Positions 38,993 to 57,299 of a stretch of DNA of 64,000 bases are shown one piece after another. Numbering within the stretch: the first letter of the stretch is position 1; every line of letters begins with the position of its first letter. Source of the stretch: Mycolicibacterium aichiense. Its GTDB lineage: Bacteria; Actinomycetota; Actinomycetes; Mycobacteriales; Mycobacteriaceae. The notes below the pieces were generated by a model. That model searched no databases. It was not told the origin of the DNA and saw only the letters and a program-made list of their open reading frames with translations. The stretch spans positions 4,836,001-4,900,000 of the forward strand of contig NZ_AP022561.1 in NCBI RefSeq assembly GCF_010726245.1, written 5' to 3'. The position numbers and the translations under genes are program-made.

Positions 38993-39686
38993 CGAAGTCT
39001 CCGTTCATCTGGCTCGGCGGCCCGCCTCAAGCGAGCCGCACAGATTCGCACAGGGCACCGACAAGTTGGAGCAGCGTCGTGGAAGCTAGAGCCAAGGAAC
39101 TAAAGCTGCAGCCCGGCGCTCACTGCGGCTGCGGGGTGTCCAGCCAACAGGCCGCGACTCGCATTCCGCCAGAGGATCTGTGCCACCTGCCCTACCGTCG
39201 GTTCTTATGGACAGTGGGGGCCCAGGAAGGCGGACATCCGGGCAGCGGCCTCCTAAGCTCTGTCCGTGCTTGTGTGTGTTCGCTATCCGCTCGAGCACAG
39301 AAGGATGGTCCTGCCGCACGACTGCGTCAGCGCTCCGGTGCACACTAACGCCGTACGTGCGGCTGCTCCGGTCTCACCGAATCCAGCCGCATACAAATTG
39401 TTCGGCGCACACAGTCACCTGTGTCGGTGACCGCGCTATGTCGACGCCTGGGCTGCTGAGCGACACCCGCGACCCAAAGGAGGTCTGAAAGCCGAAGGCG
39501 TTTCGTTCGGTACCGGAGTGACCGACCCAGACGCCAAACTCGTGGCCGATGACCTCCTCGCGCTTGTGGAACCTGAGGCGTAACACACGCAAATTGTGAG
39601 TACGGGACGACACAGCGAGTTCTGACGTGATTCCCCCACTTCATATTTCGTAAGATTGACAGCTGCGAAACGGCTGCCCACCGTCG
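38993..39686. other. Gene-poor region inside the defence island
   Basis: 694 bp between the 61-aa ORF and the end of the 169-aa gene. Open frames on both strands are short and rich in Arg, Ser and Cys. The only protein-like piece is a plus-strand frame at about 39431-39583, listed separately. The promoter for the giant-protein operon should be close to 39000-39060. No tRNA, integrase or repeat was recognised. Confidence 0.4.
39431..39583 (+). pseudogene. Possible gene remnant (C-terminal tail)
   Basis: A frame bounded by a TGA at 39428 and a TAA at 39581 reads like the natural end of a protein: about 50 residues ending in SFGTGVTDPDAKLVADDLL and then ALVEPEA. It has no ATG or TTG start; the only GTG, at 39518, would give 21 residues. 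A perfect AAAGGAGGT ribosome-binding sequence lies at 39476-39484, but no start codon follows at the right distance. It may be the remaining end of a gene removed by recombination. The parent family is not recognised. Confidence 0.3.
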
Positions 39687-40193
39687 TTACGTAGGCCACC
39701 AGAGCAGATCATCGGGGTAGCCGTTATGCGCGAGGTTGTTTAAGGTGCGGAGGCCGAGTGTTTTGCGACGCGTCGCGGTATCGAACGAATCGTATTCGTC
39801 GAGGCTTAACATCAATTCGAATTCTTTATCGCCGTCCCGGCAGAAAATCCGGCGTTGTTGGTCGACGCGAACCAGCGGCCGATCATCATCATCGGTCCAC
39901 TCCCCGACCGCACCGAAGAACAGCTCTCCCACCTCCCGGTAGCGTTCGCGACGCGACGCTTCGACTGCGGCCACCGCCGCAGCTCTGGAGCGTTCAGCTG
40001 GAATCCCTCCGATGTCCTCAGATCCGAGGTCCTCGCGCATCCCGTCCTCGCTCCAGGACACGTAATAGCCCACGACTGCGTCATTGTCGTCATAAGCCGC
40101 TTCGATCGTATAGTCGCCATATTGCACGTAGTCCCCGTCGTCATCGGACCAGTCCAACGGCTGGTATCCGATTGGCCATTCATCAGTGCTCAT
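39687..40193 (-). CDS. Acidic protein of unknown function
   Basis: A 168-aa very acidic protein (many Asp and Glu, e.g. LDWSDDDGDYVQYGDYTIE at its start) with aromatic residues spaced through it. There is no signal peptide or membrane helix, and no domain is recognised. The ATG at 40193 lies at the end of a three-gene run on the same strand downstream of the SMC-like ATPase. Acidic proteins in such places can be DNA mimics or immunity-type partners, but there is no direct evidence. The first codon could also be the GTG at 40196. Confidence 0.6.
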   Translation of the reverse strand: MSTDEWPIGYQPLDWSDDDGDYVQYGDYTIEAAYDDNDAVVGYYVSWSEDGMREDLGSEDIGGIPAERSRAAAVAAVEASRRERYREVGELFFGAVGEWTDDDDRPLVRVDQQRRIFCRDGDKEFELMLSLDEYDSFDTATRRKTLGLRTLNNLAHNGYPDDLLWWPT

Positions 40194-40458
40194 CACTCAC
40201 CAGCCTTTTGTCGAAACCTCTCTTGGCCATTGGTTGGACGGCGTCGCCCCGTCCGCGCCGGCGACACCTTGACGACCCGCGTGCGAACACACCACTTGGC
40301 TCGCCTGTCTGGCAGGACCTTGATCGTCGGTGTCTGCGCAAGACGCGCTTGCCAGTATGTGAGTGTTCGCCGCCAACTTCCATCCGCTCATCGTCGACCC
40401 AGAGGCAGTTGTGCGCGTAGTCCTCAAGCCACGCAAGACCATTGGCTTCCGGACTCAT
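40183..40458 (-). CDS. Small ORF of uncertain frame (91 aa)
   Basis: ATG 40458 has an excellent ribosome site (GGAGGGAAGC). The first 30 residues (MSPEANGLAWLEDYAHNCLW and on) look like a real protein; after about residue 32 the frame becomes Arg/Ser-rich. An alternative minus-strand frame entered near 40360 reads TYWQARLAQTPTIKVLPDRR and ends in a TGA that shares a base with the ATG of the acidic gene at 40193, as coupled genes do. A single frameshift near 40350-40370 would join the good start to this better end. I list the intact frame but doubt its C-terminal half. Confidence 0.4.
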   Translation of the reverse strand: MSPEANGLAWLEDYAHNCLWVDDERMEVGGEHSHTGKRVLRRHRRSRSCQTGEPSGVFARGSSRCRRRGRGDAVQPMAKRGFDKRLVSDEH

Positions 40459-40519
40459 GCTTCCCTCCGTCTCGAGATGCGTGCAACTAGACCCGCCGTT
40501 GTGCAACAGCGCTATTGAC

Positions 40520-40861
40520 CTACGCCTCGCTCACGAGACCCGCCACAACCCCACACAACTGCTGAACTTCGGCTACTGACGGCTGTAGCTCATAGGCATG
40601 GAGATGGCAGGCATTGCTCAGGCGATGCCACGCGACCGCCGCGCGGCTAGCGACCTCGGCATCGTCGAGAACCCGCAGGATGAGCAACTGGCTGCGTGTG
40701 TTGGCGCTCGGTGCTCGGGCATCGACCTCGGTACAGCGCGCATCGATAATCTCCTCCAGTGCGCGGCGAGCCAGGAACGCGGCCATCCTTGCGGAAAGGC
40801 CGCCGGACGCACGCGTCGTCAAGATCGACTGTGCCTGTGCCACCAGGTCGACGGCCTTCAT
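40520..40861 (-). CDS. Small helical partner of the SMC-like ATPase (113 aa)
   Basis: A 113-aa all-helical-looking protein. Two blocks appear conserved-like: AAFLARRALEEIIDARCTEV (about residues 27-46) and RLSNACHLHAYELQPSVAEV (about 80-99). The layout of a helix with RALEEII and a later NACHLHAYE recalls HEPN-type small helical domains, but a strict R-x4-6-H motif is not evident, so this is tentative. The ATG overlaps the stop of the ATPase gene by four bases (ATGA), so the two are a coupled pair. Confidence 0.65.
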   Translation of the reverse strand: MKAVDLVAQAQSILTTRASGGLSARMAAFLARRALEEIIDARCTEVDARAPSANTRSQLLILRVLDDAEVASRAAVAWHRLSNACHLHAYELQPSVAEVQQLCGVVAGLVSEA

Positions 40862-43161
40862 CGCAGCGCCAACAACGCATGGACCGTGTGTTCGAGTTCC
40901 TCCGCCTCCGGCTTGGTGATGTCAACGCCGTCGCCGTGCACGGCATTGCATACCCGAAGGGTGTAGCGCCGCTCAGGCCTCGCGTCGAGCCACTTGGTGA
41001 GATCAGCTTTCGAGTCGCCGTGTACCGCCAACGCCATCCGCTGGCCGGTCTTCATCGCCGCCGTCCAGGCCTTCTCGGATTCGGCACGGCTGCCGCCCGC
41101 AAGCGCCCGCTTCGTGTAAAACGCCTGCTTCGCCGCGGCTTCCACCGCGAGCCGGAAGAGCCCGGGCATCACCCGCATTCGGATCTCTTTCGGCAGACCC
41201 TCGTCCTTCAGTAAGGCGAAGACGTCGTTGACCTGACGCTGCGCGGGATTGAGGTTGTCGCGGATGGTCACTTTGGAGCCCGCCTCACGGACTACCTCGA
41301 TGAGCCTCGCGTCCGTTCCGGTGTCCCTGATTGTCGACGCCAGCCGGTCGTCATGTGAGAACACGATCACTTGATGCGTCTGAGCGATCTCCGACAACAC
41401 TTGGACGAAGCCGTCGATCTTCGCGGGGTCCATCGCCTGAATCGGGTCGTCGAGCACGATGAACCGGAACGGGCTGCTGGTTGCGGTCGCTCGCGGCAGG
41501 AACAACGCCAACGCCAACGCGTGCAGCTCGCCCTGACTCATCACCGGCAACGCCTTGGTCGGTTCGCCGTCGACGGAACCCTCGAGCACGGCCTTGCGTT
41601 TGGTGGCGGTACCTTCCAGGGTGACGTTGCCTAGGTCGACATTGCTCTCTTGGCGGAGCTCACCCCAAATCTTGCGAGCTTGTGCCGCAATGGTTCCCAG
41701 TCGCTTGTTGCGGAAGGGTACAGCACGTTCGTTGAGCCACTTCTTCGCGGCGGTCATGGTCTTGACGGTGCCGTCGTTCTCTCGCGCATCTCGCTCCAGC
41801 GAGACCCAGCTAGCGATCTGTGCTGCAACTGGCGCCCATGCGTACTCCTTAAGCTCAAGTGCCTCTTGGGCTTGCGCACGCAGTACTTCGGCACAGCCCG
41901 CGACACTCAGCAGAGCCGAGTCCAGGTGGTTGGCGAGGTCAACGTCGCCATCGGGCCTGTCGGCGGTGGCTGCAACGGCCTCGTTGTAGCTCCTGAGTGC
42001 AGAGAGCTCCACTCCGGGCACCTCGCCGATCTGCTCGACACTGCCGACCAGCCTGAGCGCCGCGGTTCGGGCGCTAACGAGCTCGGCTGTCGCGGCCTGA
42101 TACTCGCTGAGGACCTGTTCTGTGCTGGCCACCGACTCCCTTGCAGCGCTGGACCATTCACCGTCGAGTCTGCCCTGGCCACACACGGGGCAGTCGATGT
42201 CGCCTTCATGGTCATGCAGACGAAGCGCCGACTGGAGAAGTTGGACCCGCTGGCGGGTGCCGTCGGCCAACGACGCGGCGACCGTCGTCAGGTTCTGAGT
42301 AGCGGCTCGCAGTCGGGCTGCCGCAGAATCGATCTCGTCGATCGTGGGCGCTTCGAGCGCCGCGGCGCGCCGCAGCGCCAACAGCTCCGTGTGGCCCTGA
42401 GCATCTGATCCAGTGACCAAGGCCAGCACCTCATCCAGCGGTGCACCGCCCCGCTTCTTCAGTAGCGTCGTGGCCAGCTCCGCGCGTTCGTCAGCGTTGT
42501 CGGCAAGTACACCGAGCAGCCTCTTGCGCTCGTCATCGGCGCGATCACGTCCGGCCTTCGATGACTTGAGCTCTGCTACAAGCCATTTCTCAGCATCGGC
42601 GAGCACCTCGAGTCCGAGCAATTTGGCCAACGCGTCGTAGAGCGCCGACGGGCCGCCATCGAACAAACGGCCCAACTCGTCGTAGGACAGCACGGGGCGG
42701 GTCAGCTCGAGTGGACGTCCCCACCCCAGACTGCCGGTGCCCTCCGTGCGGTCGCCACCGGCCACCTGCGTGTACGACGTCCGGGCGTTGAGCTCGGCGC
42801 CCTTATCCCAGCTGACCCCGACCGTGAACGGCCCTAGATCTTCAGCGGTGAACCCAACCCGGATTGCGCAGGGGTGCGGGCGATGCAAATTGCGCCAAGA
42901 CTCCGCCCATAACGTTTCCTTCTTGAGCCAGCGGTAACTGGTGCCGGTGAGAGCGAGTTCGAGCGCTTCGGCGAAGCTCGACTTTCCGGAGCCGTTGCGT
43001 CCGCTGACCACAGTTAGGCCAGGCGCGGGGTAAAGATCGAGTTGGGCCTGGCCCCCAATGCCGCGGAAACCTACCACCGAGATGCTGGTCAGGAAGGTTG
43101 GTGAAGGTTGGGTGCCGGCGGCCGTATCTTCGTCGGCAACCTCAGCAAGCGCGTTGAGCAC
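40858..43161 (-). CDS. SMC/RecF-like AAA ATPase (zinc-hook type)
   Basis: A 767-aa ATPase of the SMC/Rad50/RecF type. A short N-terminal region precedes Walker A SGRNGSGKSSF (residues about 53-63). A long coiled-coil-like middle contains a zinc-hook-like CPVC (about residue 320). Walker B FIVLDDPIQAMD is near residue 565, with a following SHDDRLA segment. The last 150 residues are helical and may be a separate effector or partner-binding domain. The annotated GTG at 43161 has no ribosome site, and protein-like sequence in the same frame continues about 30 codons upstream (EESVQDVILQLLDDDAALHS) without a normal start codon. SMC-like ATPases paired with small proteins are common in defence systems. 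Confidence 0.85.
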   Translation of the reverse strand: MLNALAEVADEDTAAGTQPSPTFLTSISVVGFRGIGGQAQLDLYPAPGLTVVSGRNGSGKSSFAEALELALTGTSYRWLKKETLWAESWRNLHRPHPCAIRVGFTAEDLGPFTVGVSWDKGAELNARTSYTQVAGGDRTEGTGSLGWGRPLELTRPVLSYDELGRLFDGGPSALYDALAKLLGLEVLADAEKWLVAELKSSKAGRDRADDERKRLLGVLADNADERAELATTLLKKRGGAPLDEVLALVTGSDAQGHTELLALRRAAALEAPTIDEIDSAAARLRAATQNLTTVAASLADGTRQRVQLLQSALRLHDHEGDIDCPVCGQGRLDGEWSSAARESVASTEQVLSEYQAATAELVSARTAALRLVGSVEQIGEVPGVELSALRSYNEAVAATADRPDGDVDLANHLDSALLSVAGCAEVLRAQAQEALELKEYAWAPVAAQIASWVSLERDARENDGTVKTMTAAKKWLNERAVPFRNKRLGTIAAQARKIWGELRQESNVDLGNVTLEGTATKRKAVLEGSVDGEPTKALPVMSQGELHALALALFLPRATATSSPFRFIVLDDPIQAMDPAKIDGFVQVLSEIAQTHQVIVFSHDDRLASTIRDTGTDARLIEVVREAGSKVTIRDNLNPAQRQVNDVFALLKDEGLPKEIRMRVMPGLFRLAVEAAAKQAFYTKRALAGGSRAESEKAWTAAMKTGQRMALAVHGDSKADLTKWLDARPERRYTLRVCNAVHGDGVDITKPEAEELEHTVHALLALR

Positions 43162-43511
43162 CGCGTTCTTGATGTCCGAGTGCAGCGCTGCGTCGTCGTC
43201 GAGCAGCTGCAGTATGACGTCTTGGACCGATTCCTCGCTCGTTTCCCCACCGCCCTATTGAACTACGGCGGACCGACACGGCGGGTGTTCTAACCAAAGG
43301 CGTTCGCGTGTGACCAACCAGCTGGGTCACTTGGCTGCTTGGCCACCGAGAATCGCGATGCAACGCGATGGCTTTAATGTCTAGAATGCACTGGCTTGTA
43401 CGGGGTGGTCCGGCCGCATGCTGACGAATCTAAATTAAGCAATCAAGATTGGACTACCTGAGTGCGATGGCCGCATGCTTATCGTCAATGATAGGAGAGC
43501 ATACGAGCACG
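43162..43511. other. Region upstream of the SMC-like ATPase, possible missing N-terminus
   Basis: From 43162 to about 43251 the minus-strand frame of the ATPase stays open and protein-like, then meets a TAG at 43255-43257. A GTG directly before the run of four G (minus strand; 43245-43248 on plus) would become the start if one more G were present. The remaining sequence to 43511 is AT-richer than its surroundings, holds the promoters for the ATPase operon and for the small plus-strand gene, and shows no other gene. Confidence 0.4.
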
Positions 43512-43709
43512 ATGCCTAACTACGACTGCACGTTTATCCTCACCAACCCATACAGCACAGACGCCGTCCCGGACGTGGAAAATCTCGCGGTTCGCGCCTA
43601 TAACCACATGTACGACAAGTCTGAGGAAGGATGGCGTCTTGTTTCCACGTCGACACCGCCGGATGCAAACGCCTTGATGTTCTTCTGGGAGCAGGTGGAA
43701 CCAGATTGA
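43512..43709 (+). CDS. Small protein resembling DUF4177 (65 aa)
   Basis: A 65-aa protein (MPNYDCTFILTNPY at the start) with the pattern of a short strand, a helix with VRAYNHMYDKSEEGWRLVS, and a final strand ALMFFWEQ. The EGWRLV motif recalls the small DUF4177 fold. An AGGAGA sequence lies 14 bases before this ATG; an in-frame ATG at 43491 and an earlier start at 43449 are alternatives. It stands alone between two minus-strand units. Confidence 0.5.
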   Translation: MPNYDCTFILTNPYSTDAVPDVENLAVRAYNHMYDKSEEGWRLVSTSTPPDANALMFFWEQVEPD

Positions 43710-43843
43710 TCGCTGCTGCCGGCGGACAGAGGGCTAAGCAAAGCAAGTGAATTCCGACGGCTGTGGCGCAGGGTTGTGGAAGGGTGGAAGTTGGACCTAC
43801 AGCGCGAGTCAGGCGGGGTTTAGCCGGATCGGCCCGGCCCTGG

Positions 43844-44752
43844 TCATTCGAAGTAATCCTCGTCGACTTCGACGACAGTGAACACCTGGCGTTTTTGGAC
43901 GCCAACGCCGTATTTGATCATCAACTCGCTGAGCCGCTGTCCATCGATCAGCACAACCCTGGTGCCGATGCCCTTCACATACTCAATCGCACCCGCCGAA
44001 AAGCGACTGGTCGTGATAAACACGCCTCGATTTGCGCCCACCCCGTGGAGTGCGCCGACGAATCCTTGGACGTCAGGTCGTTGGACGCTGTTGTCCTTGC
44101 CGTAGCGCTTCGCTTGCACGTAAACCCGCTCCAGTCCGAGCGGATCCTGATCGATGACTCCGTCAACACCGCCGTCTCCCGATCCGCCTAGGACAGTCGC
44201 GCGCTGTTCAGCACCTCCGTACCCCATCGCGACGAGCACGTCGAGCACTGACTGCTCAAGGAAGCTGGGGTCCTGCTCGCGCAGGCGTTTGAGCAGATCC
44301 GCCGCAACCTCTCCGTGCAGCGCGGCAACCCCGTTCTCAATCATTTCCAGCGGGTCGGCCGACTCCCCTGTTATGACTTCGACTGCGGCGCTATTGGCCG
44401 CGGCCTGGCCGCTCCCGAGTCACGCGACGTAGGCCTGGTAGACGGGCAGAGTCTTTAGAGTTTTTTCGGAAATCCCATTCGGGTGCTGATCAAGGAATTG
44501 TCTGCCGGCGTCATTCAACCGGTATGCCGCCCGCTGTGGCTTTTCAACGAGCTCTGCCTTATACAACGCGCTCACCGCCCAACCGACACGATTCTCGGCT
44601 CTCGACTCGCCAGACGACAAAGGCTCGAGACGTTGCTCGTCCGTGAGCCCGACATGGTTACAGACAGCTTCGAGGAGCTCGCGTCTTTTCCATACTTTGC
44701 CGTCGGCCAGCACTTCTAGTACGGGTTTGAGAAAGCCCGACCACACAGGCAT
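43844..44752 (-). pseudogene. mrr: mrr-type restriction endonuclease interrupted by one in-frame TGA
   Basis: Two open frames, 44420-44752 (110 aa) and 43844-44344 (166 aa), lie in the same phase and are separated only by a TGA at 44420-44422. The first is the Mrr N-terminal winged-helix domain (FLKPVLEVLADG, WAVSALYKAELV). The second is the Mrr nuclease domain with GDGGVDGVI and VYVQAKRYG, the D...QxK catalytic core, then VFITTSRFS and LIDG. The 26 codons between them continue family-like sequence (AVEVITGESADPLEMIENGV), so nothing is missing except one sense codon. Total length would be about 302 codons, close to E. coli Mrr (304 aa). Mrr enzymes cut methylated DNA. The TGA is followed by C, a leaky context, so readthrough is possible. 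Confidence 0.85.
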
Positions 44753-44877
44753 CGCCACGGGTCCACTCGAGGTCACCAGGCCACTATTGCATTCACAGGG
44801 CAGCACAAGCCGAGCTTGCCTCGATTCTCGGGCGGATTCGGCTGCGAGTGTTGCAGTCGCGGACCACAATCGGGTCC

Positions 44878-46074
44878 GTGGTCTCTTCGTTCGGGTGGTT
44901 GGACACGGATAACGAGCAACGTCGGAAGATGTTGGAGGTCGTCGATCTGTTTAAGGAAGAAGGCACGGTCGACGAGCTGGGCATCGGTTCGATCAGGGAC
45001 GCCTTCGCGGACGCACTCTTCCCCGGCACATCGGTCCTACAGACCCGGCTGCGGTACGTCCTATTCATTCCGTGGCTGATGCAAGAGGCCACGAAGGGCA
45101 ACCGCACTTCCAACGAGATGAGCGCGCGGTTCCGCGACAACGAGCTGCAGCTGATCTACGCACTCGACCAGGGTGAGGAGAAGCTCGGCGTCATCGGCAA
45201 CACCGCACGCGCCAAGTTGAAGCGAATGCCCAGCAGCATGTACTGGGCCGCCATGGGCACGTGGGGCATACGCAATACCGACCTGTCGCCTAATGCGTAC
45301 TTTCGTCGACAATACGACTACCGCCGGCTCGCCGACCGCACTGCGCGCGCTGACGACCCCGAAGCCCGAGACCTGTTGCTGAACAACGATCTTGATCCTC
45401 ACCTTCCTGCGGCGCCCGCCGGATTGCTGGGAAAAACATCTTTCGAGCTTCGGCCCGAGGAGGAGCAGTACCTGTCGGACCGCATATCGGCGTCCAAGGC
45501 GGACTCGATGCTCGCGTGGCTCATCCGCAACGAACCAGGCAATCTGCCGGACTACGTCTGGCAGGTCGACAACGTGGGCGAGGCGCCAGAACAGCTTCAG
45601 GATTTAATCGATCATGCGCGCCGCTTCCACACCGTCATCTACGGCGCGGCAGCGCTCTACAACCTGTTGCTTGCACGAAAGAGCCACCGAGACGATCTGG
45701 TCGCGGAATACGAGAAAGCGATTGAAAATTGGCGCGGCGAAGTCCATGCGACTAACGCGCTCGACGGCTGGAATCGATCAGATTGGTGGGCGAAGGTGCA
45801 ACAATGCAACCCGCGCCTGCGCCAGGCGACAAAGACCTTCGTCAACAGCTGGATCGACCTCACAATCTCCGATATTGACCTTGCCAACGATCCGACCGCG
45901 ATCGCCCTCATCAACAATCGCGAACGGCAGATCAAGGGTGGCCGTGCGCGATTAATCAACCAGGCAGCACTCGACCGGTGGTCGGGCCAAAGTGGACTGA
46001 GCCGGCTGGACTACCGCTGGTCGGTTGCCCGCCGTCACCTCCGCGACCTCTACGCCGCGAGGCACGCCGCGTGA
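44878..46074 (+). CDS. DUF6361 family protein
   Basis: A 398-aa soluble, mostly helical protein. The N-terminus VVSSFGWLDTDNEQRRKMLE and the segment TVDELGIGSIRDAFADALFPG match the DUF6361 family as I know it, whose biochemical role is unknown. A block TRLRYVLFIPWLMQ follows. No nuclease, methylase or helicase motif is visible. GTG 44878 is preferred because it gives the expected short N-terminus; GTG 44848 would add ten residues. The gene is first of three that overlap by four bases each (DUF6361, PLD nuclease, SNF2-like helicase), so its product is probably an obligate component, perhaps the specificity or structural subunit. It diverges from the broken mrr gene. Confidence 0.82.
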   Translation: MVSSFGWLDTDNEQRRKMLEVVDLFKEEGTVDELGIGSIRDAFADALFPGTSVLQTRLRYVLFIPWLMQEATKGNRTSNEMSARFRDNELQLIYALDQGEEKLGVIGNTARAKLKRMPSSMYWAAMGTWGIRNTDLSPNAYFRRQYDYRRLADRTARADDPEARDLLLNNDLDPHLPAAPAGLLGKTSFELRPEEEQYLSDRISASKADSMLAWLIRNEPGNLPDYVWQVDNVGEAPEQLQDLIDHARRFHTVIYGAAALYNLLLARKSHRDDLVAEYEKAIENWRGEVHATNALDGWNRSDWWAKVQQCNPRLRQATKTFVNSWIDLTISDIDLANDPTAIALINNRERQIKGGRARLINQAALDRWSGQSGLSRLDYRWSVARRHLRDLYAARHAA

Positions 46075-47927
46075 CGCTGACCCCCGAGACGCGCGTGCTG
46101 CTCACAGACGCCATCCGTCCGCCAGCGGGCTACCGAATGGAAGTCGCTGTTGGAACGACGTATTCGCTCACTCTCACCGCGCTGCTGCTGGCGCCGTTGT
46201 CGTTCGCGTTGTTCGACTGTCAGGACAGCGAAGCAGTCGAGCGCGACGACAGTCAGGACATCAGATCATCGGATCCCATCCGACTTCTCGAGGCCGTGCG
46301 CCGGTACGCCGACCACACCACGGTCTTCTGCCAGGCCGGCGGGATCCACGTGCCGACGCAGTACCGAAGCATCCTCACTTTTGTCGAGGACAGCGTGCGC
46401 GAGGCCTCGCCATCCCAAGAAGACTCGTTGTTCCATCCGAAGATGTGGGCGCTGCGCTTCGTCACCGAGAACGGGGAGCGGCTCCACCGCGTGGTCGTGC
46501 TGAGCCGCAACCTGACGTTCGACCGGTCGTGGGACACCGCCTTGGTTCTCGACGAAGAAGCCGGCGGAAACGTCGACGCTGGTCCAGCTGCTGAGTTCGT
46601 CCGCCATCTTCCGAGTCTTGCTCTTCGTCCGCTGCAGAAGAGTCGATCCGATGAGCTTCTCGACCTTGCAACGACTCTCGAACACGTGACGCTCGGTGCG
46701 CCTCCCCCGTTTACCGGCGGCGAGCTCATTCCGATGGGGCTCCACGGGGAGACAACGTGGCCGTTCCCCCATCGAGGCCGACGCCTTCTGGCCATCAGCC
46801 CGTTCCTGACCAAGGGGGCGATAGACCAGTTGGCAAAAGTGTCCGACGATCGCACGGTGGTATCTCGGGCCGAGTCGCTCGAACAGACGGGATCCGACGC
46901 ACTGCACGGATGGGATGTGAACGTGCTGCAGCGCCTGGCCGAAGTCGATCCGAGTGAGGACGTCGAGGACGTCACCAAGACGGTGACCGACGGATTCTTC
47001 GAAGCTCACGACGGCCTGCACGCGAAGACCTTCGTCGTCGATGTCGATCAGAACCAGTCGATGGTCGTCACGGGCAGCGCCAACCTCACCACCGCATCCT
47101 GGAACCGCAATGTCGAGTTCGACGCTCTCTTAACGGGTCCCACAGCGTCGTGCGGGGTGTCAGCCGTCCTCAATGGTTCGCCCGAAGCGCCGGGCCTCAG
47201 GCAGATCCTCGAGGAGTACGCCATCTCGACACCGCAAGGCATCACCGACGAAGCGGCCGAGACAGCATTTGCGCTCGAAGCACTTCATCGCCGCCTGGCC
47301 GCGGGCCACGTCTCCCTACACATCGAGCCTGTCGATGATGAGCGCGTCGAAGGACTTCTGACGCTCGAGACTCCTCCGAATGCGCCTGGAACGACGACTG
47401 TGCGATTGGCGTCACTCAATGACGTCCAGGCGAAACCCTTGGCGGCACAGATCGACTGGACCATCTCGCCGATCAACGTCACGCCATTCATCGTCGTCGA
47501 GACCACGGCTGGATCTGGCGCCGCGAAGGTCACTCGCCGATGTGCCCTGAAGGCCGAGTTGACCGGTGCCGTCGACGGACGGCGCCAGGACGCCGTTTTC
47601 TCGATCCTCAGAAGCAAGGAGGACGTCTTGCGCTATCTGGTCTTCCTCCTTGGAGATCCCAGCTATGATGCGCTATTCGCCGAGGTGGCCGGGCTAACCG
47701 CAGACCGGCTCGCCGACGCCGACAAATCTGCTCAGACGAACAACGATGTGGCGCTCTTCGAGCCATTAGTGCGCGCGGCGGGACGGGATCAAGACGCGCT
47801 GGCACGTGTCGCGAGCCTCGTCGAGGAGATCCGCGAGCTCCCCAACGGCTCCGAGCTCGTCCCTGATGGATTCGACGAGCTGTGGGACGTCGTGTGGCAG
47901 GTACATCAGGAGCAACATCGCGCATGA
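46071..47927 (+). CDS. Phospholipase D-superfamily nuclease-like protein
   Basis: A 618-aa protein with two PLD-type half-sites. The first has FHPKMWALRF (about residue 121), then LSRNLTFDRSWD. The second has LHAKTFVVD (about 315), then VTGSANLTTASWNRN; these are the H-x-K and following S/N-x-N motifs of a full two-site PLD active centre. In prokaryotic defence loci PLD proteins are usually nucleases rather than lipases. The last 250 residues lack recognised motifs and may bind DNA or the helicase. The GTG start overlaps the DUF6361 stop (GTGA) and its TGA overlaps the helicase ATG, so the trio is translationally coupled. It is much longer than DISARM DrmC. Confidence 0.88.
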   Translation: MTLTPETRVLLTDAIRPPAGYRMEVAVGTTYSLTLTALLLAPLSFALFDCQDSEAVERDDSQDIRSSDPIRLLEAVRRYADHTTVFCQAGGIHVPTQYRSILTFVEDSVREASPSQEDSLFHPKMWALRFVTENGERLHRVVVLSRNLTFDRSWDTALVLDEEAGGNVDAGPAAEFVRHLPSLALRPLQKSRSDELLDLATTLEHVTLGAPPPFTGGELIPMGLHGETTWPFPHRGRRLLAISPFLTKGAIDQLAKVSDDRTVVSRAESLEQTGSDALHGWDVNVLQRLAEVDPSEDVEDVTKTVTDGFFEAHDGLHAKTFVVDVDQNQSMVVTGSANLTTASWNRNVEFDALLTGPTASCGVSAVLNGSPEAPGLRQILEEYAISTPQGITDEAAETAFALEALHRRLAAGHVSLHIEPVDDERVEGLLTLETPPNAPGTTTVRLASLNDVQAKPLAAQIDWTISPINVTPFIVVETTAGSGAAKVTRRCALKAELTGAVDGRRQDAVFSILRSKEDVLRYLVFLLGDPSYDALFAEVAGLTADRLADADKSAQTNNDVALFEPLVRAAGRDQDALARVASLVEEIRELPNGSELVPDGFDELWDVVWQVHQEQHRA

Positions 47928-50900
47928 AGCCCGATCCCGAACAGATCCTGGCCAGTCTCAAGGACTTCCAGCGCAACACTGTCGAGTATGCTTTTCAACG
48001 ACTGTGGGGCGACGAAGACCCGGTCAAGCGCTTCCTCGTCGCCGACGAGGTCGGCCTCGGCAAGACGATGGTGGCCAAGGGGCTGGTAGCCAAGACGGTC
48101 GAACACCTTTGGGACACCGACAAAAGAATCGACATCGTCTACATCTGTTCGAACAGCCAGATCGCCCGGCAGAACCTGAGCCGACTCAAGGTGGTCGACG
48201 GGAACACCGTCCGCCATGCCGACCGGCTTACGTTGTTGCCGAACGTCATTCGTAACCTGCGTGATAACAAGGTCAACTTCGTGTCGTTCACGCCAGGAAC
48301 GTCTTTCAAGGTCGGCACGTCCGGGGGTGCTGCACCGGAGCGAGTGCTGCTGTACTGGCTGCTGACGCAGTGCTGGGGGCGAGACGCGGTGGCAGCGACC
48401 CGCTGGAAGCGGTTCTTCGAAGGCAACGTCGAGCGGTCGAGATTCGAGTGGTATCTGAAGACCTTCGACCGCTCGTCGTTGGACGACGAACTGTGCCAAT
48501 CGTTCGGCGAAGCCATCGAGACCGCCATAGGGCCAGGAGGCGGCCGGCTGCGGGATGAGTTGGAAGCGTGCGTCGATGACTTCAACTACCTGCGGGACAA
48601 GCCGTCAAACCAACTGAGCAGTAGGCGGAATCGTTTGATCGGCAGGCTGCGACAACTCGTTTCCCGCGCCGCCGTCCACCACCTCGAGCCGGATCTGGTG
48701 ATCCTCGACGAGTTTCAGAGATTCAAGGACCTACTCGACGCCGATGATGAGGGCGCCGAACTCGCTCACGCGATCTTCGATCACCCCGACGCGAAAGTTC
48801 TCTTGTTGTCGGCGACGCCGTACAAGATGTACACGCTGCCGGATGAGCCTGAAGGCGACGACCACTACCGCGATTTCATCCGTACCGTGCGATTCCTCGC
48901 GGATGACGAGCGAGCACACATCGTCGAGCGTGAGTTGCGAAAGATGCGTGAGAGTTTGTTCTCTGGCGGCGATCACGCACCTGCGGTAGAAGCCAAGGGG
49001 GTCGTGGAGCGAGAGCTTCGCCGCGTCATGTGCCGAACGGAACGTCTGTCGGCGACTCAGGACCGGGACGGGATGCTGGAATCGCGGGAGATGCCGGGAG
49101 CGCGGCTGGCAGCGGAGGACCTGCGGTCCTGGCAGACGTTCGACGACGTCGCACGGCACGTCGATCGGCACGATGTCTTCGAGTACTGGCGCTCGACGCC
49201 ATATCCGTTAAACCTCATGGATCGCAATTCCTATCAGGTGCGAACGAAGTTCCAAGAGGCAGCCGAACAGCACGACGCGACGCTGGTCAAGCTGCTTGAG
49301 CACGGCCGCGGGCTGCTGGACTGGAACGACATCCACCGGTACCGCCAGGTCGATCCGGGTAACGCGAAACTCCGGGGCCTTGTTGAGGACGTATTAGATC
49401 GTGGCGTATGGCAATTGGCGTGGCTGCCGCCATCTCTGCCCTATTACGAGATGGCCGGCGCCTACGCCGAACCCCAGCTGGCAACCTTCACCAAACGGCT
49501 CATTTTCTCGGCGTGGTCGGTGGTCCCCAAGGCCATCGCAGTCATGGTGAGCTACGAGGCGGAGCGACGCGCGATCGAAGCGGCGAAGCTGACGAACCGC
49601 CTATACGACGATCGCCCGATAACCCCACCACTCCAATTCCGCATGAGCGCGGGCCGTCACGCGAGCATGCCGGCGCTAGCGCTGCTGTACCCCAGCTTGA
49701 CGCTGGCCCGGCTCGGCGACCCGCTCGAGGTAGCCGGAACGCTCGGTACATCGCTGCCGGCGTCGCGCGAGGCGGTCCTCGGTGCAGTGCGGGGGCGAGT
49801 ATCAGCGGCGCTGTCTGAACTGACGGCGGGGTCGGATGCATCGGGTCCGGTAGACCAAAGTTGGTACTGGGCAGCGCCGTTCCTTCTCGACCGGCACTTC
49901 GCAGCAGCCGAGAGTGACGAGTATGCGCCGCGCATGCGGAGGTGGAGCGGTGACGAAGACAACGAATCTAGTCTTGCCTCGCACCTGGACTATGCGGAGA
50001 ACTTCGATGATTCGCAGCTCGGTTCGCGACCCGCGGATCTCGACGAAGTGCTCGCACGAATGGCGATCGCTGGACCCGGAGTATGCGCCCTGCGCGCACT
50101 GTCGAGGGTCACCGGCGGCCCTGACGCACTGCAGGACATTGAAGTTCGCGATGCAGCGTATCAAATCGCCCAGGGATTGAGGTCGCTGTTCAACAAGCCT
50201 GAGATCATTGCCCTGATGCGATCGGGTGATGACGCGTCGTACTGGCGAGCTGTCCTGGACCACTCGTTCAGCGGGTGCCTACAGGCAGTACTCGACGAGT
50301 ACGCACACGTGCTGATCGAGTCCGAAGGCCTTCAGGACGCGGATGCATACGTGCGCGCCGATACCCTCAGCGCCGTCATGTCCGAGGCTTTGTCGATTCG
50401 CACAGCGACGAACGCTGTCGAGCAGGTCACCGTCAGCGGCTCCGAGATAAATCTCGAGGAGCACCGCATCAACAGTCACCTGGCCGCCAGGTACGGACGC
50501 GTGCAGTCGAATGAGCAAGCAGCACAGCGTGAATCCACAATCCGAACTGGATTCAATTCGCCGTTTAGACCCTTCGTGCTCGCGTCGACGTCGGTAGGCC
50601 AGGAGGGGCTGGACTTTCATACCTACAGCCATGCCATCGTTCACTGGAACCTTCCGAACAATCCGGTTGACCTAGAGCAGCGTGAAGGACGCGTTCACCG
50701 CTACAAAGGCCACGCGGTCAGGAAGAACGTCGCCGACGTGTACGGTGCCGCGGCCCTTTGGTCGCAAACTGCGGACCCATGGAGAGCGATGTTTGAAGCT
50801 GCAGTTCACGCACGCGAGGCTGACGACTCAGACATCAAACCGTTCTGGATTTTCACTCGCCCAGGAGGCGCGGTAATCGAGCGATACGTGCCTGCGCTTC

Positions 50901-51064
50901 CGCTGAGCAGGGAGGCGCAGCAGTACCGACGATTACTTCGGACTGTCGGCGCCTACCGTGCCTTGATCGGGCAGCCTCGCCAGGATGACTTGATCCGATA
51001 CGTCGGTGACGACGTGGAGTGGCTGAGAATCGATCTCACGCCAACAGTGACGGGACAGTATTGA
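47924..51064 (+). CDS. SNF2-like SF2 helicase/translocase
   Basis: A 1046-aa helicase. Motif I VADEVGLGKTMVAKG (about residues 38-52); motif II ILDEFQRF (DEFQ in place of DEAH, about 260); motif III LLSATPYKMY (about 296). The C-terminal RecA-like lobe has STSVGQEGLDFHTYSHAIVH and the arginine-finger region QREGRVHRYKGH (about 895-925). A long insertion of about 500 residues between lobes lacks known domains. The DEVGLGKT motif marks SNF2/RapA-like translocases that move along duplex DNA, so it may drive or license the PLD nuclease. The ATG at 47924 overlaps the PLD stop by four bases; the frame upstream belongs to the PLD gene. Confidence 0.9.
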   Translation: MKPDPEQILASLKDFQRNTVEYAFQRLWGDEDPVKRFLVADEVGLGKTMVAKGLVAKTVEHLWDTDKRIDIVYICSNSQIARQNLSRLKVVDGNTVRHADRLTLLPNVIRNLRDNKVNFVSFTPGTSFKVGTSGGAAPERVLLYWLLTQCWGRDAVAATRWKRFFEGNVERSRFEWYLKTFDRSSLDDELCQSFGEAIETAIGPGGGRLRDELEACVDDFNYLRDKPSNQLSSRRNRLIGRLRQLVSRAAVHHLEPDLVILDEFQRFKDLLDADDEGAELAHAIFDHPDAKVLLLSATPYKMYTLPDEPEGDDHYRDFIRTVRFLADDERAHIVERELRKMRESLFSGGDHAPAVEAKGVVERELRRVMCRTERLSATQDRDGMLESREMPGARLAAEDLRSWQTFDDVARHVDRHDVFEYWRSTPYPLNLMDRNSYQVRTKFQEAAEQHDATLVKLLEHGRGLLDWNDIHRYRQVDPGNAKLRGLVEDVLDRGVWQLAWLPPSLPYYEMAGAYAEPQLATFTKRLIFSAWSVVPKAIAVMVSYEAERRAIEAAKLTNRLYDDRPITPPLQFRMSAGRHASMPALALLYPSLTLARLGDPLEVAGTLGTSLPASREAVLGAVRGRVSAALSELTAGSDASGPVDQSWYWAAPFLLDRHFAAAESDEYAPRMRRWSGDEDNESSLASHLDYAENFDDSQLGSRPADLDEVLARMAIAGPGVCALRALSRVTGGPDALQDIEVRDAAYQIAQGLRSLFNKPEIIALMRSGDDASYWRAVLDHSFSGCLQAVLDEYAHVLIESEGLQDADAYVRADTLSAVMSEALSIRTATNAVEQVTVSGSEINLEEHRINSHLAARYGRVQSNEQAAQRESTIRTGFNSPFRPFVLASTSVGQEGLDFHTYSHAIVHWNLPNNPVDLEQREGRVHRYKGHAVRKNVADVYGAAALWSQTADPWRAMFEAAVHAREADDSDIKPFWIFTRPGGAVIERYVPALPLSREAQQYRRLLRTVGAYRALIGQPRQDDLIRYVGDDVEWLRIDLTPTVTGQY

Positions 51065-51526: not shown

Positions 51527-52798
51527 TCAGCCACCGCGGGCCTGCGAATCCTCAAGCAAATCAGCAATCGCGATTGCTTCGGGCATCGTCCAAGTTGCCG
51601 CTTCGTCCTCAAGGATTTGCATCCAAGAGGGCGCCTCATTCGTCGCACGATCAGCAGCATCCGTGCGGACTTTGAGCGCTAACATCCCGACCCGCATCAA
51701 GACGGGAACATTGAGATGCCTGACCGCAACAAGTGCTTCGCCCGCAATTGCCGCGATTACTGTCTTAGACAGACTAGCTCCACCGGCCGCGGCATGAGCC
51801 GCCAGCAGCATTTCGGTGCGCTTGGCCGCACCCGCAGCGGTCAGACGCGGACTGCCTGTGTCGCGATATGCCGCCAGATGCACGTGGGTTCGGATGACGA
51901 GCTCAGTCGCGATCATGCCGATACCAGGAGTGAGCATTCCCGAGCGGAGGTTCAATCCGTCACCCGAATTCGTTCCTGCATAGGCGTTGTGGGCGAATTT
52001 TCGTAGCTCTCGATCCGGCATCTCGTAGAGCAACGACCAACCGGGGAGCGGAAGGCTCATTGGGGTGACGAAATCTGCAGCCCAGTGTTTGAGTAATAGC
52101 GCGACGGCCAGGTGCGGCTCGGTTATTTGAACGAACGGCAGACCGGAACGAGTCGTGGTCACGGATTCGACAAAGCGCTGACCATCTTCCCACACAGTGC
52201 CCCTGAAGGTGCCGGACCTGATTTGGTTGAGGGCTTCGAAAAAGCGTCCAATATCGTGGCCGGCTGATCGCACGCGATGGGCGGGCCCACCGAAGTTCGG
52301 GCCCGTGTAGTCGATGGGCAGGCGTGCCGCATCCCTCTCCCACCTCTGCAGAAAGTCGGTCTTCTTCAGCCACGACAGACCACCGAGAACCGCTGTGTCG
52401 ACTTGGCTGTCGTAAAGATTCGCGAGGGCGCCGACAAAGCCTGCGGTGCCGACGGCAGCCAAATCGCCAGGCTCCCAGGGAATTCGCTCGGACTGCCGCC
52501 ACTTTTCGAGTTGTACGGCTGCGACGGGGTCGATGAGGTCGTTCAAGTCGGGCTCACCCCACGCTTCAGCCACGCGGCGCTCGCGATTGTGTTCGGTGAT
52601 CGCGTCGTAGGTGAGGCCAGTTGGCGCCTGCGATAGGCGCCTCGCCATTTCGTGGTCGAGAGGTTTCTCAGCGAGAGCTGCCCTCGCAAGCGCCTCAACG
52701 TGGTCAATGTCGCGCCCTAGGGCGTCAAGGTTCTCGATGAAGTCGGCGTCAACTACAAACCCTTGATCGGTATCCTTGCCTTGGTTGTCTGCAGTCAC
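51527..52798 (-). CDS. Unknown partner of the coiled-coil membrane protein (423 aa)
   Basis: I do not recognise the family. It is a soluble or weakly membrane-associated protein with no signal peptide. Visible blocks are a hydrophobic WEPGDLAAVGTAGFVGALANL stretch (in part, about residue 110), GGPAHRVRSAGHDIGRFFEAL (about 170) with two histidines, WAADFVTPMSLPLPGW (about 240), and a C-terminal half of helices with Ala, Gly and Leu. The GTG start overlaps the preceding stop (GTGA), so it is translated together with the membrane/coiled-coil protein. A two-gene unit like this inside a defence island may be an abortive-infection module, but this is inference. Confidence 0.65.
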   Translation of the reverse strand: MTADNQGKDTDQGFVVDADFIENLDALGRDIDHVEALARAALAEKPLDHEMARRLSQAPTGLTYDAITEHNRERRVAEAWGEPDLNDLIDPVAAVQLEKWRQSERIPWEPGDLAAVGTAGFVGALANLYDSQVDTAVLGGLSWLKKTDFLQRWERDAARLPIDYTGPNFGGPAHRVRSAGHDIGRFFEALNQIRSGTFRGTVWEDGQRFVESVTTTRSGLPFVQITEPHLAVALLLKHWAADFVTPMSLPLPGWSLLYEMPDRELRKFAHNAYAGTNSGDGLNLRSGMLTPGIGMIATELVIRTHVHLAAYRDTGSPRLTAAGAAKRTEMLLAAHAAAGGASLSKTVIAAIAGEALVAVRHLNVPVLMRVGMLALKVRTDAADRATNEAPSWMQILEDEAATWTMPEAIAIADLLEDSQARGG

Positions 52799-54015
52799 GC
52801 AGCTTCCTCAAGGTCATCGGCAAGCGCAGCGACACCCTCGGCAAGCGTCTCCGCGTCCTTCTTTTCGCCTTCGAGTTCATTCATTTCTGCCAACAGCGCT
52901 TGAAGCTCGGGGGCTTCAGGGCCGGTGACACGCTCGATTAGTTTGTCAGCAATAGCGCGAAAACGCGCGATGCGCTCCTCGGCCTCCAACCGCTTCGCCC
53001 GCTCTGCATCGACCTCCGCCTGCTTGGTTTCGAGCTGAACACGAAGCTTTTCAATCCGCTCGCTAAGAGCCGCCACGATCTTGCCTAGGTTTTCGACACG
53101 CTCGCGAAAGCTGACGATGACCGCCTTGGCAGCCTCCTCGTTACCATCGACGTCACGCAACACAAGCTGCGTGACGACGTGCAGCCGCACCGCATCAGCG
53201 GCAACGCGGGCGACTGTGTAACCCGATGCTCGCCCACCGAGCGTTGCCGCGCCAACACCAGCCACACCAGTGAGCCCCGTGATCAGAGCCGCGCCACCAG
53301 CCATACCTAGCCCTCCCGCTGCGATCGACCCGCCGCCGAGCGCCGCCATTCCCGCGGTCGTCGCAACCGCGCCCGAGTAGCCAAGGACAAGTGAACCGAA
53401 AACGCCCGCGATCGCGGGCGCTGCGAGCCCGCCAGTCAGCAGGCCCACGCCGAGCCCCGCCCCAGCAAGGAGCGCGTACTTTGACCACGAGCCTGTCGCC
53501 GACAGCTTCTTGATGGCATCTTTGTAGGCGGTTTCCACGGCGTCGAGATCCTCGGGATGCAGCTGGTTCATCGCGCAATGGGCATCTGACAGGGTTTTGG
53601 CGCGGACGTTTCGGTCCCACTTGCCCTCGACCCACGGTTCGAAGCCGTACAAGTCAATGAGGACCAGCAGTGCTCGAGACCGCTTGGCGACCAGTCCCGA
53701 GATCTCCGGACCTGCGTCCTCCAGCGCCTCGAGATCGGTGGACTCGGTGGCTGTAATTTGGTAGACGACTTCGGCCAGCGGAGACGACCAGTCGCTAATG
53801 CTTCGGCTCTCGATGGCCTGGACCGCGGCAAGGCGAAACGCGTTTCGAACAGCGCGCTTGGAGGCGAGGCTCTTCCCAGCCGACGCTGCGATGTCACGCT
53901 GCATCATTCGGTACTGCCAAGCGGTGAGGATGAAATCCTCGTCTGCTGAAAGCTCAAGCTTCTTCTGCACGTGTTGGCCGTCCACCGTCAACACGCTAGC
54001 GGCATCCCCCGACAA
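52795..54015 (-). CDS. Glycine-rich membrane / coiled-coil protein
   Basis: A 406-aa protein in three parts. Residues about 1-165 are soluble and helical. Residues about 175-265 are strongly hydrophobic and Gly/Ala-rich (LLAGAGLGVGLLTGG, AALGGGSIAAGGLGMAGG), resembling the membrane-inserting stretch of DUF726 (TMCO4)-like proteins. Residues about 295-380 form a charged coiled coil (FRERVENLGKIVAALSERI, then LETKQAEVDAERAKRLEAEE in part). An effector that inserts into the inner membrane on a signal sensed by the coiled coil or partner is a reasonable guess. The TTG start at 54015 is uncertain. It overlaps its downstream partner by four bases. Confidence 0.7.
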   Translation of the reverse strand: MSGDAASVLTVDGQHVQKKLELSADEDFILTAWQYRMMQRDIAASAGKSLASKRAVRNAFRLAAVQAIESRSISDWSSPLAEVVYQITATESTDLEALEDAGPEISGLVAKRSRALLVLIDLYGFEPWVEGKWDRNVRAKTLSDAHCAMNQLHPEDLDAVETAYKDAIKKLSATGSWSKYALLAGAGLGVGLLTGGLAAPAIAGVFGSLVLGYSGAVATTAGMAALGGGSIAAGGLGMAGGAALITGLTGVAGVGAATLGGRASGYTVARVAADAVRLHVVTQLVLRDVDGNEEAAKAVIVSFRERVENLGKIVAALSERIEKLRVQLETKQAEVDAERAKRLEAEERIARFRAIADKLIERVTGPEAPELQALLAEMNELEGEKKDAETLAEGVAALADDLEEAA

Positions 54016-54356: not shown

Positions 54357-57299
54357 ATGAAGTTTAAGTGGGTTTCACCGGCGAACGGCACTTCGCGGCC
54401 CGTCCCCAAGCCGTTCAGTGCTGCGCCGACTTCGCCGAATGCGGTGCCCAACCGCCCGAACGCACAGACGGAACGTCCTGCTGTTATTCCCCCTCCAGCT
54501 CCAGTCACTTCCGGCCCGCGTATCGCGCCCGTTACGCGCGGCCCGATCGCAACAGACGCCGCAGATATTCCGACTCTCGACGGTGACGCTGCGAGAGCAG
54601 TCACGCACCGCGGCAGTCACATTCAGATCATCGCAGCCGCCGGCTCGGGGAAGACGGAAGTCGTTTCTCAGCGGGTGGCGTCGTTGCTCTCCGACGGAGA
54701 GCCGCCGGAGTCGATCGTCGCATTCACATTTACCGAGAAGGCCGCCGCTGAGCTCAAGGAGCGCATTCGTGAGCGGGTAACCGCACTCATGGGACCGAAG
54801 GCCACTGATCAGCTCGGCCGGTTGTTCGTCGGGACAATCCACGCGTATTGCTTCCGGATGCTCCAGATGTACGTGCCGCGGTATGAGACCTACACTCCGC
54901 TCGACGCAAATCAGCTGACGAACTTCCTTTACCAGCAGAGCAGGCTGATCGGTATCACCGCACTCGTACCTACCGACGGCACGTTCAAGAACATCGCTAC
55001 TTTCCAGCGTGGCATCGACGTGATCGAGAACGAGCTGATCGAAATCGAGACCTTGCCCGCCGGCGACTTCAAGGCTGCGGTGGAGTCCTACTACGCAGCG
55101 CTCGATCGCCATCAGTTCATGTCGTTCGGCACGCAGATCGTCCGCGCCGTTGAGGCACTTGCCGACCCCGAAGTCCACGCCGCGGTGGTCGCTCCACTAC
55201 GGCACCTCATCGTCGACGAGTACCAGGACGTCAACCCAGCGCAGGAGCGACTGGTCGAACTGCTCGCAAAGCCCCACGGCAATGCGGACGTCGTGGTGGT
55301 CGGTGACGACGACCAAGCGATCTACCAGTGGCGTGGCTCGTCAGTCACAAACATCGTTACTTTCGCCGATCGTTACCCCGCAGTCACTCAATTCACACTC
55401 CTGACCAATCGTCGCTCACGACCTGGAATCATCGAGGTTGCAAACCTTTTCGCCGAAACGATCCCCGGACGCATCCAAAAGCAGATGCTGCCATTTCGCG
55501 ACGCTGACGGTCCGAGTGTCGCGATCGTCCGGGATCCGGGAAACGAGGGCGACGCGGCAGACGAGATAGCGCGGCAGATCCTCGACTTCCATTCGAAGGG
55601 GCTCCCCTACCGGGACATCGCGGTCCTCGTCCGCGGCCGGGCTGCCTATCCGGCGCTCATTGACGCCTTTGCCAAGGCGGCCATACCCGTACAAGCAGGC
55701 GGGCGGTCGGGGTTGTTTGCGCAATCCGAACCGCAGGTGTTCGGAGCCACGTACGCATGGATCGCCGACATCGATTGGGCGAATGCGAAATTCGCTCAAC
55801 GGCAGAAGGTCACCCTCGACCTTCTGCTCAACGACTATTGCGCTGTATTCAATCTCGCGCACTCAATGCGCGCGAAACTGTCCACATATCTCGAGGAGTG
55901 GAAAGCGCGGGCGCTCGCGAGCGATTTCAATGAGAGCCTTGTCCGCGACTTCTACTCGTTGATGGCGTTGATTGAAGTCAACAAGTGGGATCTGTCGGAT
56001 GCATTAATACGCAACCGTCTTGGGACCATCGCGCGGTTCACTGCCGTTCTAGCCGATTATGAGGGCGTCAGCTGGCGCGCACGCAAAGACCCGAATAACC
56101 CGACTGAACAGGTCGGCGGCCGCAGCGGTGGAGTGTGGTTCTACAAGAACCTCGCCATATTGCTCACTAATTTTGCCGTGGGTAGCTACGATGACTTCGC
56201 AGGCGAGGAAGGTCACCTCGACGACGCCGTAGCGCTGGGAACGATTCACGGCTCGAAAGGCCTGGAGTGGCCGGTAGTGTTCCTTCCGTCGCTAGTGAAG
56301 CAGCGATTCCCGTCGAATATGACCGGACGTGCGCAGGTGTTTCCCGGCGATCTCATCGGCCGTTTCGACCGGCAAAGGTACGAAGGTAGCGACGCCGACG
56401 AGCGGCGGCTGTTTTACGTCGCAATCACACGCGCCCGCGACGCAGTACTGCTGTCGAGCTTCTCCCTGCGAGACAACGGAAAGAGCCGCGGCGCATCGCC
56501 GTACTTCGATGAGGTCGTAAACGCCTACACAAAATCCGGCACGCCCACGTCCGCAACGAGTAAGGGTGCGTCGGCCGAGGCTGACATCGCGATCACCTAC
56601 AGTGAACTGGCTGCATTCGAGTCTTGCCCGCGGAGCTACCTGCTGAAGAACGAGCTCGGATTCATGCCGGCAATTCAGCAAGAACTCGGGTACGGCAACG
56701 CGGTCCACCACACGATGCGGGTGCTCGCTGAGCGCACGCAGGCGACGGGCGCTATACCCACAGCGCTACAAGTGGATCAGCTGCTTAACTCCGAGTTCTT
56801 CTTGCCGTTCGCGAACAAGGCGGGCCACAGGGAGATGCGAGAGAAGGCGCGGCGTCTCGTCATGCGATACGTTAACGAACATTCTTCAGATCTGTTGCGC
56901 ACCTGGGCAACTGAACGCCCATTCGAGCTCTATCTCGATGGCGCCGTAATCTCAGGTCGCGCCGACGTCATCTACGACAGCCACGACGGGCAGATTGGAC
57001 GAGTCGCAATCGTGGACTACAAGACGTCAACCGGCGGGCAGATCGACCCGCTGCAACTGCAGATCTATACAGAAGCCGGACGACGCGAAGGACTCGATGT
57101 CGGCGGCGCCTTCATTCAGGACCTCGGCGCTGAGACTCGGTACGACGTAGCCATCGATACAAAATCGATCTCGGATGCCGAGACTCAGATTATCACCACC
57201 GTAGACGCGTTGCGACGCCGTGAATTCGAGCCGAAACCGGACCGCAGAAAGTGCCGTCAGTGTGACGTGCGGCAGATCTGCTCGGCCTCAGCGACCTAG
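54357..57299 (+). CDS. UvrD/RecB-type SF1 helicase fused to Cas4-like PD-(D/E)xK nuclease
   Basis: A 980-aa helicase-nuclease. A Pro-rich N-terminal tail (about 1-70) is followed by Walker A AAAGSGKTEVVSQR (about 98), Walker B VDEYQDVN (about 287), GDDDQAIYQWRG (about 316), GTIHGSKGLEWPVV (about 628) and FYVAITRARD (about 685), all of the UvrD/PcrA family. The C-terminal 230 residues form a Cas4/RecB-like nuclease: a cysteine in ESCPRSY (about 755), GRADVIYD plus IVDYKTS as the D...DxK site (about 867-893), and three cysteines in CRQCDVRQIC, which can hold a 4Fe-4S cluster. It resembles AddB/RecB-type enzymes but lacks a partner subunit nearby. It runs convergently with the type III restriction genes. 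Confidence 0.9.
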   Translation: MKFKWVSPANGTSRPVPKPFSAAPTSPNAVPNRPNAQTERPAVIPPPAPVTSGPRIAPVTRGPIATDAADIPTLDGDAARAVTHRGSHIQIIAAAGSGKTEVVSQRVASLLSDGEPPESIVAFTFTEKAAAELKERIRERVTALMGPKATDQLGRLFVGTIHAYCFRMLQMYVPRYETYTPLDANQLTNFLYQQSRLIGITALVPTDGTFKNIATFQRGIDVIENELIEIETLPAGDFKAAVESYYAALDRHQFMSFGTQIVRAVEALADPEVHAAVVAPLRHLIVDEYQDVNPAQERLVELLAKPHGNADVVVVGDDDQAIYQWRGSSVTNIVTFADRYPAVTQFTLLTNRRSRPGIIEVANLFAETIPGRIQKQMLPFRDADGPSVAIVRDPGNEGDAADEIARQILDFHSKGLPYRDIAVLVRGRAAYPALIDAFAKAAIPVQAGGRSGLFAQSEPQVFGATYAWIADIDWANAKFAQRQKVTLDLLLNDYCAVFNLAHSMRAKLSTYLEEWKARALASDFNESLVRDFYSLMALIEVNKWDLSDALIRNRLGTIARFTAVLADYEGVSWRARKDPNNPTEQVGGRSGGVWFYKNLAILLTNFAVGSYDDFAGEEGHLDDAVALGTIHGSKGLEWPVVFLPSLVKQRFPSNMTGRAQVFPGDLIGRFDRQRYEGSDADERRLFYVAITRARDAVLLSSFSLRDNGKSRGASPYFDEVVNAYTKSGTPTSATSKGASAEADIAITYSELAAFESCPRSYLLKNELGFMPAIQQELGYGNAVHHTMRVLAERTQATGAIPTALQVDQLLNSEFFLPFANKAGHREMREKARRLVMRYVNEHSSDLLRTWATERPFELYLDGAVISGRADVIYDSHDGQIGRVAIVDYKTSTGGQIDPLQLQIYTEAGRREGLDVGGAFIQDLGAETRYDVAIDTKSISDAETQIITTVDALRRREFEPKPDRRKCRQCDVRQICSASAT

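Follow-up and report, generated by a model that had tools for sequence, protein, structure and literature searches.

A three-gene operon in Mycolicibacterium aichiense

A 64,000-nucleotide stretch of the Mycolicibacterium aichiense genome (contig NZ_AP022561.1, positions 4,836,001 to 4,900,000; hereafter the window) contains three co-directional genes on the + strand between positions 44878 and 51064. The first, zacA (44878..46074), has a GTG start, chosen from the conserved N-terminus of its family, and codes for a DUF6361 protein of 398 amino acids (aa; PF19888, E 4.9e-74). It is followed by zacB (46071..47927, GTG start), which codes for a 618-aa protein of the phospholipase D (PLD) superfamily (PF13091), and by zacC (47924..51064, ATG start), which codes for a 1046-aa helicase of the superfamily 2 (SF2)/SNF2 type with Helicase_C and DEAD domains. 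The zacA/zacB and zacB/zacC junctions read GTGA and ATGA, respectively, and each is a 4-base overlap. All Pfam matches of the three genes are above the Pfam cut-offs.

Comparison with the defence models of PADLOC-DB 2.0.0 identified the operon. The best match of each gene, by far, is its own Zac model: ZacA for gene 1 (E 3.1e-135, profile positions 1-393 of 396), ZacB for gene 2 (E 5.9e-165, positions 2-584 of 586), and ZacC for gene 3 (E 0, 1174.5 bits, positions 5-1016 of 1019). Because these matches run nearly end to end in all three models, the operon is, judging from its sequence, almost certainly a canonical Azaca system with all three genes open. All three proteins are near full length; their genes adjoin one another and follow the order A-B-C known from relatives. 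No difference from Azaca was found in this mycobacterial copy, whose nearest named ZacA homologue belongs to Mycolicibacterium septicum (84% identity). Alignment with relatives indicates that the catalytic residues of ZacB and ZacC are intact.

A sequence-only reading of this DNA had proposed a candidate undescribed defence operon. Its description of the genes holds: the coordinates and junctions confirm three overlapping, co-directional open reading frames (ORFs), and gene 1 is a DUF6361 protein. Novelty does not, as PADLOC models exactly this trio as ZacA/ZacB/ZacC, the kind of database listing that the reading itself had named as evidence against a new system, and Azaca has been named in print. 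A published table catalogs it as an antiphage system with a PLD-like domain, citing Millman et al. 2022, a published methods section names "Azaca (ZacC)" among defence helicases, and one published account counts it as one of the systems for which Actinobacteria are enriched. A separate system that merely resembles Azaca is therefore extremely improbable, being contradicted by the near end-to-end matches of adjacent genes to three Azaca models, and we found no points that support it. Azaca is already known, and the window locus is an ordinary mycobacterial copy.

Distribution and gene order

The window genome has one DUF6361 match. ZacA matches were identified in 3 of 61 related genomes, and within the genus in 2 of 37, own genome included. 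Among 296 genomes of the same class, ZacA was matched in eight and ZacC, at E 1e-60, in six; the same six also hold ZacB, which was sought in the eight ZacA-positive genomes, and a near-complete ZacA beside ZacC. In one of them (G320), ZacA appears as two matches side by side and an internal stop interrupts ZacC. The remaining two of the eight (G050 and G221; loci L037 and L041) hold partial ZacA only. The partial ZacA of G221 adjoins a transposase-like ORF. Genome contigs yielded 16 related loci, 12 of which have all three genes in order; three of the others are cut by contig ends (L011, L013, and L014), and the fourth (L017) is a ZacA fragment near a contig end.

Plasmids also carry the system, with 45 of 72,556 records matching ZacA and 47 matching ZacC at E 1e-30. 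From the 45 ZacA records, 17 regions were picked for diversity (only one of 19 Cronobacter was taken) and read, and all 17 have the order A-B-C. Their hosts range over alpha-, beta-, and gammaproteobacteria and also comprise one Bacteroidota and one haloarchaeon. In this count ZacB of L032 rests on annotation, being below the tblastn limit; L019 and the ZacC of L028, both unannotated, rest on tblastn; and the annotation splits ZacA of L033 and ZacB of L027 into pieces. Junction lengths were taken from annotated loci only; other row boundaries were hand-chosen, and the ZacC start in L050 is an in-frame guess. In 8 of the 10 annotated plasmid loci included in the alignment described below, the genes overlap by 1-11 bases at both junctions; annotated gaps occur instead at both junctions of L031 and at the A-B junction of L032. 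The three genes occur together in the intact cases examined, so the association is not a peculiarity of this genome, as the sequence-only reading had allowed it might be. Because it is patchy, often plasmid-borne, and fixed in gene order, this distribution fits a mobile defence operon.

Active site and fold of ZacB

The ZacB chain carries two PLD half-sites, as had been claimed for gene 2. The first (46434..46511, + strand; residues 122-147, HPK...SRN) was identified from alignments and reads H122-P-K124...S145-R-N147. The second (47019..47084, + strand; residues 317-338, HAK...GSAN) reads H317-A-K319...G335-S336-x-N338 and is supported by alignments and by the PF13091 (PLDc_2) match at residues 314-358; Pfam detects this half-site only. 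Conservation was assessed in an alignment of 16 rows, comprising the window and 15 other loci. H317, K319, G335, S336, N338, and E349 are invariant in all 16 rows, as is N147 of the first half-site, while H122 and K124 are present in each of the 15 rows that extend this far (the annotated start of ZacB in L031 is late). The first half-site lacks the Asp usual in HKD motifs. In the second this Asp is unconserved, and 9 of 16 rows differ from the window at D324 (Glu in 7).

An AlphaFold2 (AF2) model of ZacB has a PLD fold and places both HxK...N half-sites in one chain, as expected of the PLD superfamily, with C-terminal beta strands and helices. VIA-align ranks PLD-fold enzymes first, with matches that include lipid enzymes and polyphosphate kinase. 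Foldseek returned only five matches at E <=0.001, all of them chains of tyrosyl-DNA phosphodiesterase (Tdp1; E 5e-7 to 5e-6). The model and alignments indicate that ZacB is probably a phosphodiesterase in which the two half-sites form one composite active site, and DNA is its likely substrate.

Tdp1 has HKN motifs, and both ZacB half-sites keep His, Lys, and Asn. One alternative to cleavage driven by a translocase is that ZacB, instead of cutting DNA as a general endonuclease, works like Tdp1 in end processing, removing or attacking protein or blocked ends of phage DNA exposed by ZacC. This alternative gains weight because D324 is not conserved and draws further support from the exclusively Tdp1 structural matches; we nevertheless regard it as improbable.

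ZacC motor and ZacA model

Pfam places DEAD at residues 240-300 and Helicase_C at residues 852-927 of ZacC. Motifs are found at residues 44-48 (GLGKT), 262-265 (DEFQ), 296-298 (SAT), and 919-926 (QREGRVHR), and ~550 residues separate SAT from the Helicase_C match at 852. These features bear out the description of gene 3 as an SF2/SNF2-type motor with DEFQ and a large inter-lobe insertion. G46, K47, D262-Q265, S296-P299, and R920-R923 are invariant in the 16-row alignment. Since the C lobe locally resembles DpdE and DrmD, its sequence suggests that ZacC is a translocase on double-stranded DNA.

The AF2 model of ZacA is all-helical, with a predicted local distance difference test score (pLDDT) of 83.5. 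A structure search found no confident structural match to this model. The sequence-only reading had suggested that this subunit may guide the nuclease.

Comparison with other defence systems

Like Azaca, DISARM has a PLD protein and an SNF2-like helicase, and local similarity links ZacB to DrmC and ZacC to DrmD and, more weakly, to DrmA (E 2e-9). The scores, however, are far under the NCBI cut-offs (27.8 versus 133 bits for DrmC and 54.7 versus 610 bits for DrmD), and a methylase is not among the three Azaca genes. In the PADLOC search, DrmA, DrmB, and the DISARM methylase were the best match of none of the three genes and, among the matches listed, of no scanned neighbor. Mokosh has a helicase partner. 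A PLD domain is common to Mokosh and Azaca, going by a published description, but at E 0.01 PADLOC gives neither MkoA nor MkoC as a match of ZacA, ZacB, or ZacC. With DrmC and DrmD below their cut-offs and Mko matches absent, this defence-type operon is distinct from DISARM and Mokosh, as originally argued.

Likenesses to Dpd and PDC-M27 are local. The ZacC C lobe is DpdE-like (71.3 bits), far under the 500-bit cut-off for DpdE of the Dpd system. The PADLOC candidate PDC-M27 is matched at ZacC residues 866-930 (PDC-M27C, E 2.4e-18) and ZacB residues 313-349 (PDC-M27B, E 5.2e-5), and these matches are far weaker than those to the Zac models. Hachiman (HamAB) combines a helicase and a nuclease, as Azaca does, but is described in print as two genes, a DUF1837 effector and a Ski2-like helicase, in contrast to the three genes of Azaca.

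Surroundings of the operon

The trio region has a GC content of 0.60-0.63, versus 0.63-0.69 in the first 24 kb of the window. Upstream of zacA, on the - strand, lies an Mrr-type gene (43844-44869) that is split or broken, with Mrr_N and Mrr_cat on two consecutive ORFs. Further upstream are a 767-aa SMC/RecF-like ATPase with weak LmuB/mad3 similarity and a small ORF downstream (40520-43161, - strand) and a 2099-aa protein with Swt1-like HEPN, DUF4011, AAA helicase, and MTES_1575 restriction endonuclease (REase) domains (32511-38810, - strand). The latter matches the PADLOC candidate PDC-S37 (E 7e-276); within the genus, 7 of 118 genomes have a match to it, which is fragmented in two. Downstream of zacC are two overlapping genes with no family above the Pfam cut-off (51527-54015, - strand), one of which, coding for 406 aa, contains a segment rich in Gly and Ala and weakly matches PDC-M09A (E 5e-5). 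These are followed by a UvrD helicase-PD-(D/E)XK fusion (54357-57299, + strand), with RTasHel and then GajB as its best PADLOC matches, and by a type III restriction-modification pair (57335-62040, - strand) with Mod (MTase_III, E 5e-262) and Res (REase_III, E 7e-10).

Parts of this arrangement recur in two other genomes. In G004 the 2099-aa gene (94% identity) and the ATPase (45%) are accompanied by a divergent Azaca (34%, 31%, and 38% identity for A, B, and C) that points toward the 2099-aa gene, whereas the window copy points away from it. Type I restriction-modification genes, including a methyltransferase, a specificity gene, PDC-S14, and an REase, lie beside this Azaca copy (L050:1136-8461). 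In G024 the 2099-aa gene is 94% and the ATPase 95% identical, and ZacA was not found in the genome. Relatives of the ATPase and its small ORF stand side by side in both. Comparison of the three genomes, through the window and loci L050, L052, and L054, suggests that window positions 32511-51064 may be a defence hotspot in which Azaca was perhaps acquired more than once.

On plasmids, a different pair of genes adjoins Azaca. Nine of the 17 regions, all on alphaproteobacterial plasmids (L019-L022 and L025-L029), have genes for an AddB-like PD-(D/E)XK protein and a UvrD helicase resembling AddA immediately upstream of zacA. The pair is downstream of Azaca, after one small ORF, in L030 (L030:12772-18539), and a lone AddA-like relative is upstream in the actinobacterial L006. 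The AddAB-like pair also occurs without Azaca: among 21 close plasmid relatives, 11 lack a match to ZacA. Shared defence islands explain the adjacency as well as a functional link does. An elaborate version of the end-processing idea, in which Azaca is translocase-driven surveillance of DNA ends with a Tdp1-like ZacB and, in some lineages, forms a five-gene end-resection module with the upstream AddAB-like pair, appears highly unlikely.

Proposed mechanism

Two published accounts give the mechanism of Azaca as unknown. Translocase-driven DNA cleavage by a ZacABC complex is the most likely mechanism in our assessment, an even call, and for the locus as a whole the best explanation, favored with moderate confidence, is a canonical Azaca acting in this way. 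ZacA, ZacB, and ZacC would form one complex in which ZacC spends ATP moving along double-stranded DNA and ZacB, as a PLD-fold phosphodiesterase, would cut DNA. The all-helical ZacA may serve as a scaffold, loader, or gate, restraining ZacB from acting on host DNA. Because there is no methylase in the three-gene operon, self and non-self would probably be told apart, and the system triggered, by the state of the DNA (free ends, gaps, or replication intermediates) and not by a mark made by the operon. Two precedents come from published descriptions: DrmAB of DISARM is held in an autoinhibited state until 5'-overhang DNA activates it, and in Hachiman the helicase switches on the nuclease upon sensing damaged DNA. 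By analogy, sensing in either style would explain an Azaca without its own methylase. Family membership, motifs, gene linkage, and the PLD fold of the model are the directly observed parts of this account.

The Hachiman precedent also suggests that ZacC might be a sensor of genome integrity that sets ZacB loose on all DNA, killing the infected cell along with the phage (abortive infection). Hachiman is described as a helicase-nuclease pair acting in this way, and the three Azaca genes are likewise without a methylase. The nearest known relatives of ZacC, however, are DpdE/DrmD-like motors, whereas HamB is described as Ski2-like, and we consider abortive infection of this kind unlikely, if less so than Tdp1-like end processing.

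Several points weigh against translocase-driven cleavage as we propose it. The activities assigned to the Zac proteins are predictions from sequences and models, and the ZacA model offers no functional hint. Lipids and other compounds are also among the substrates of PLD folds, and the structural matches of ZacB include such enzymes. A self mark may also be borrowed from a neighboring system. Methylase-type neighbors occur in 3 of the 17 plasmid regions. In L020 (L020:13180-15155) and L029 (L029:15180-17876), zacC is followed after ~30 bases by the start of a DNA methyltransferase gene, and in L031 (L031:2215-15839) Azaca is flanked by type I methylase/specificity genes on one side and a restriction gene on the other. 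The G004 copy is near type I restriction-modification genes, and in the window the type III Mod gene is ~9 kb from zacC.

The identification of the trio as Azaca settles the candidate, and no new system need be claimed. The two-half-site model of ZacB, the list of its residues, and the all-helical model of ZacA provide concrete targets for the study of the Azaca mechanism.

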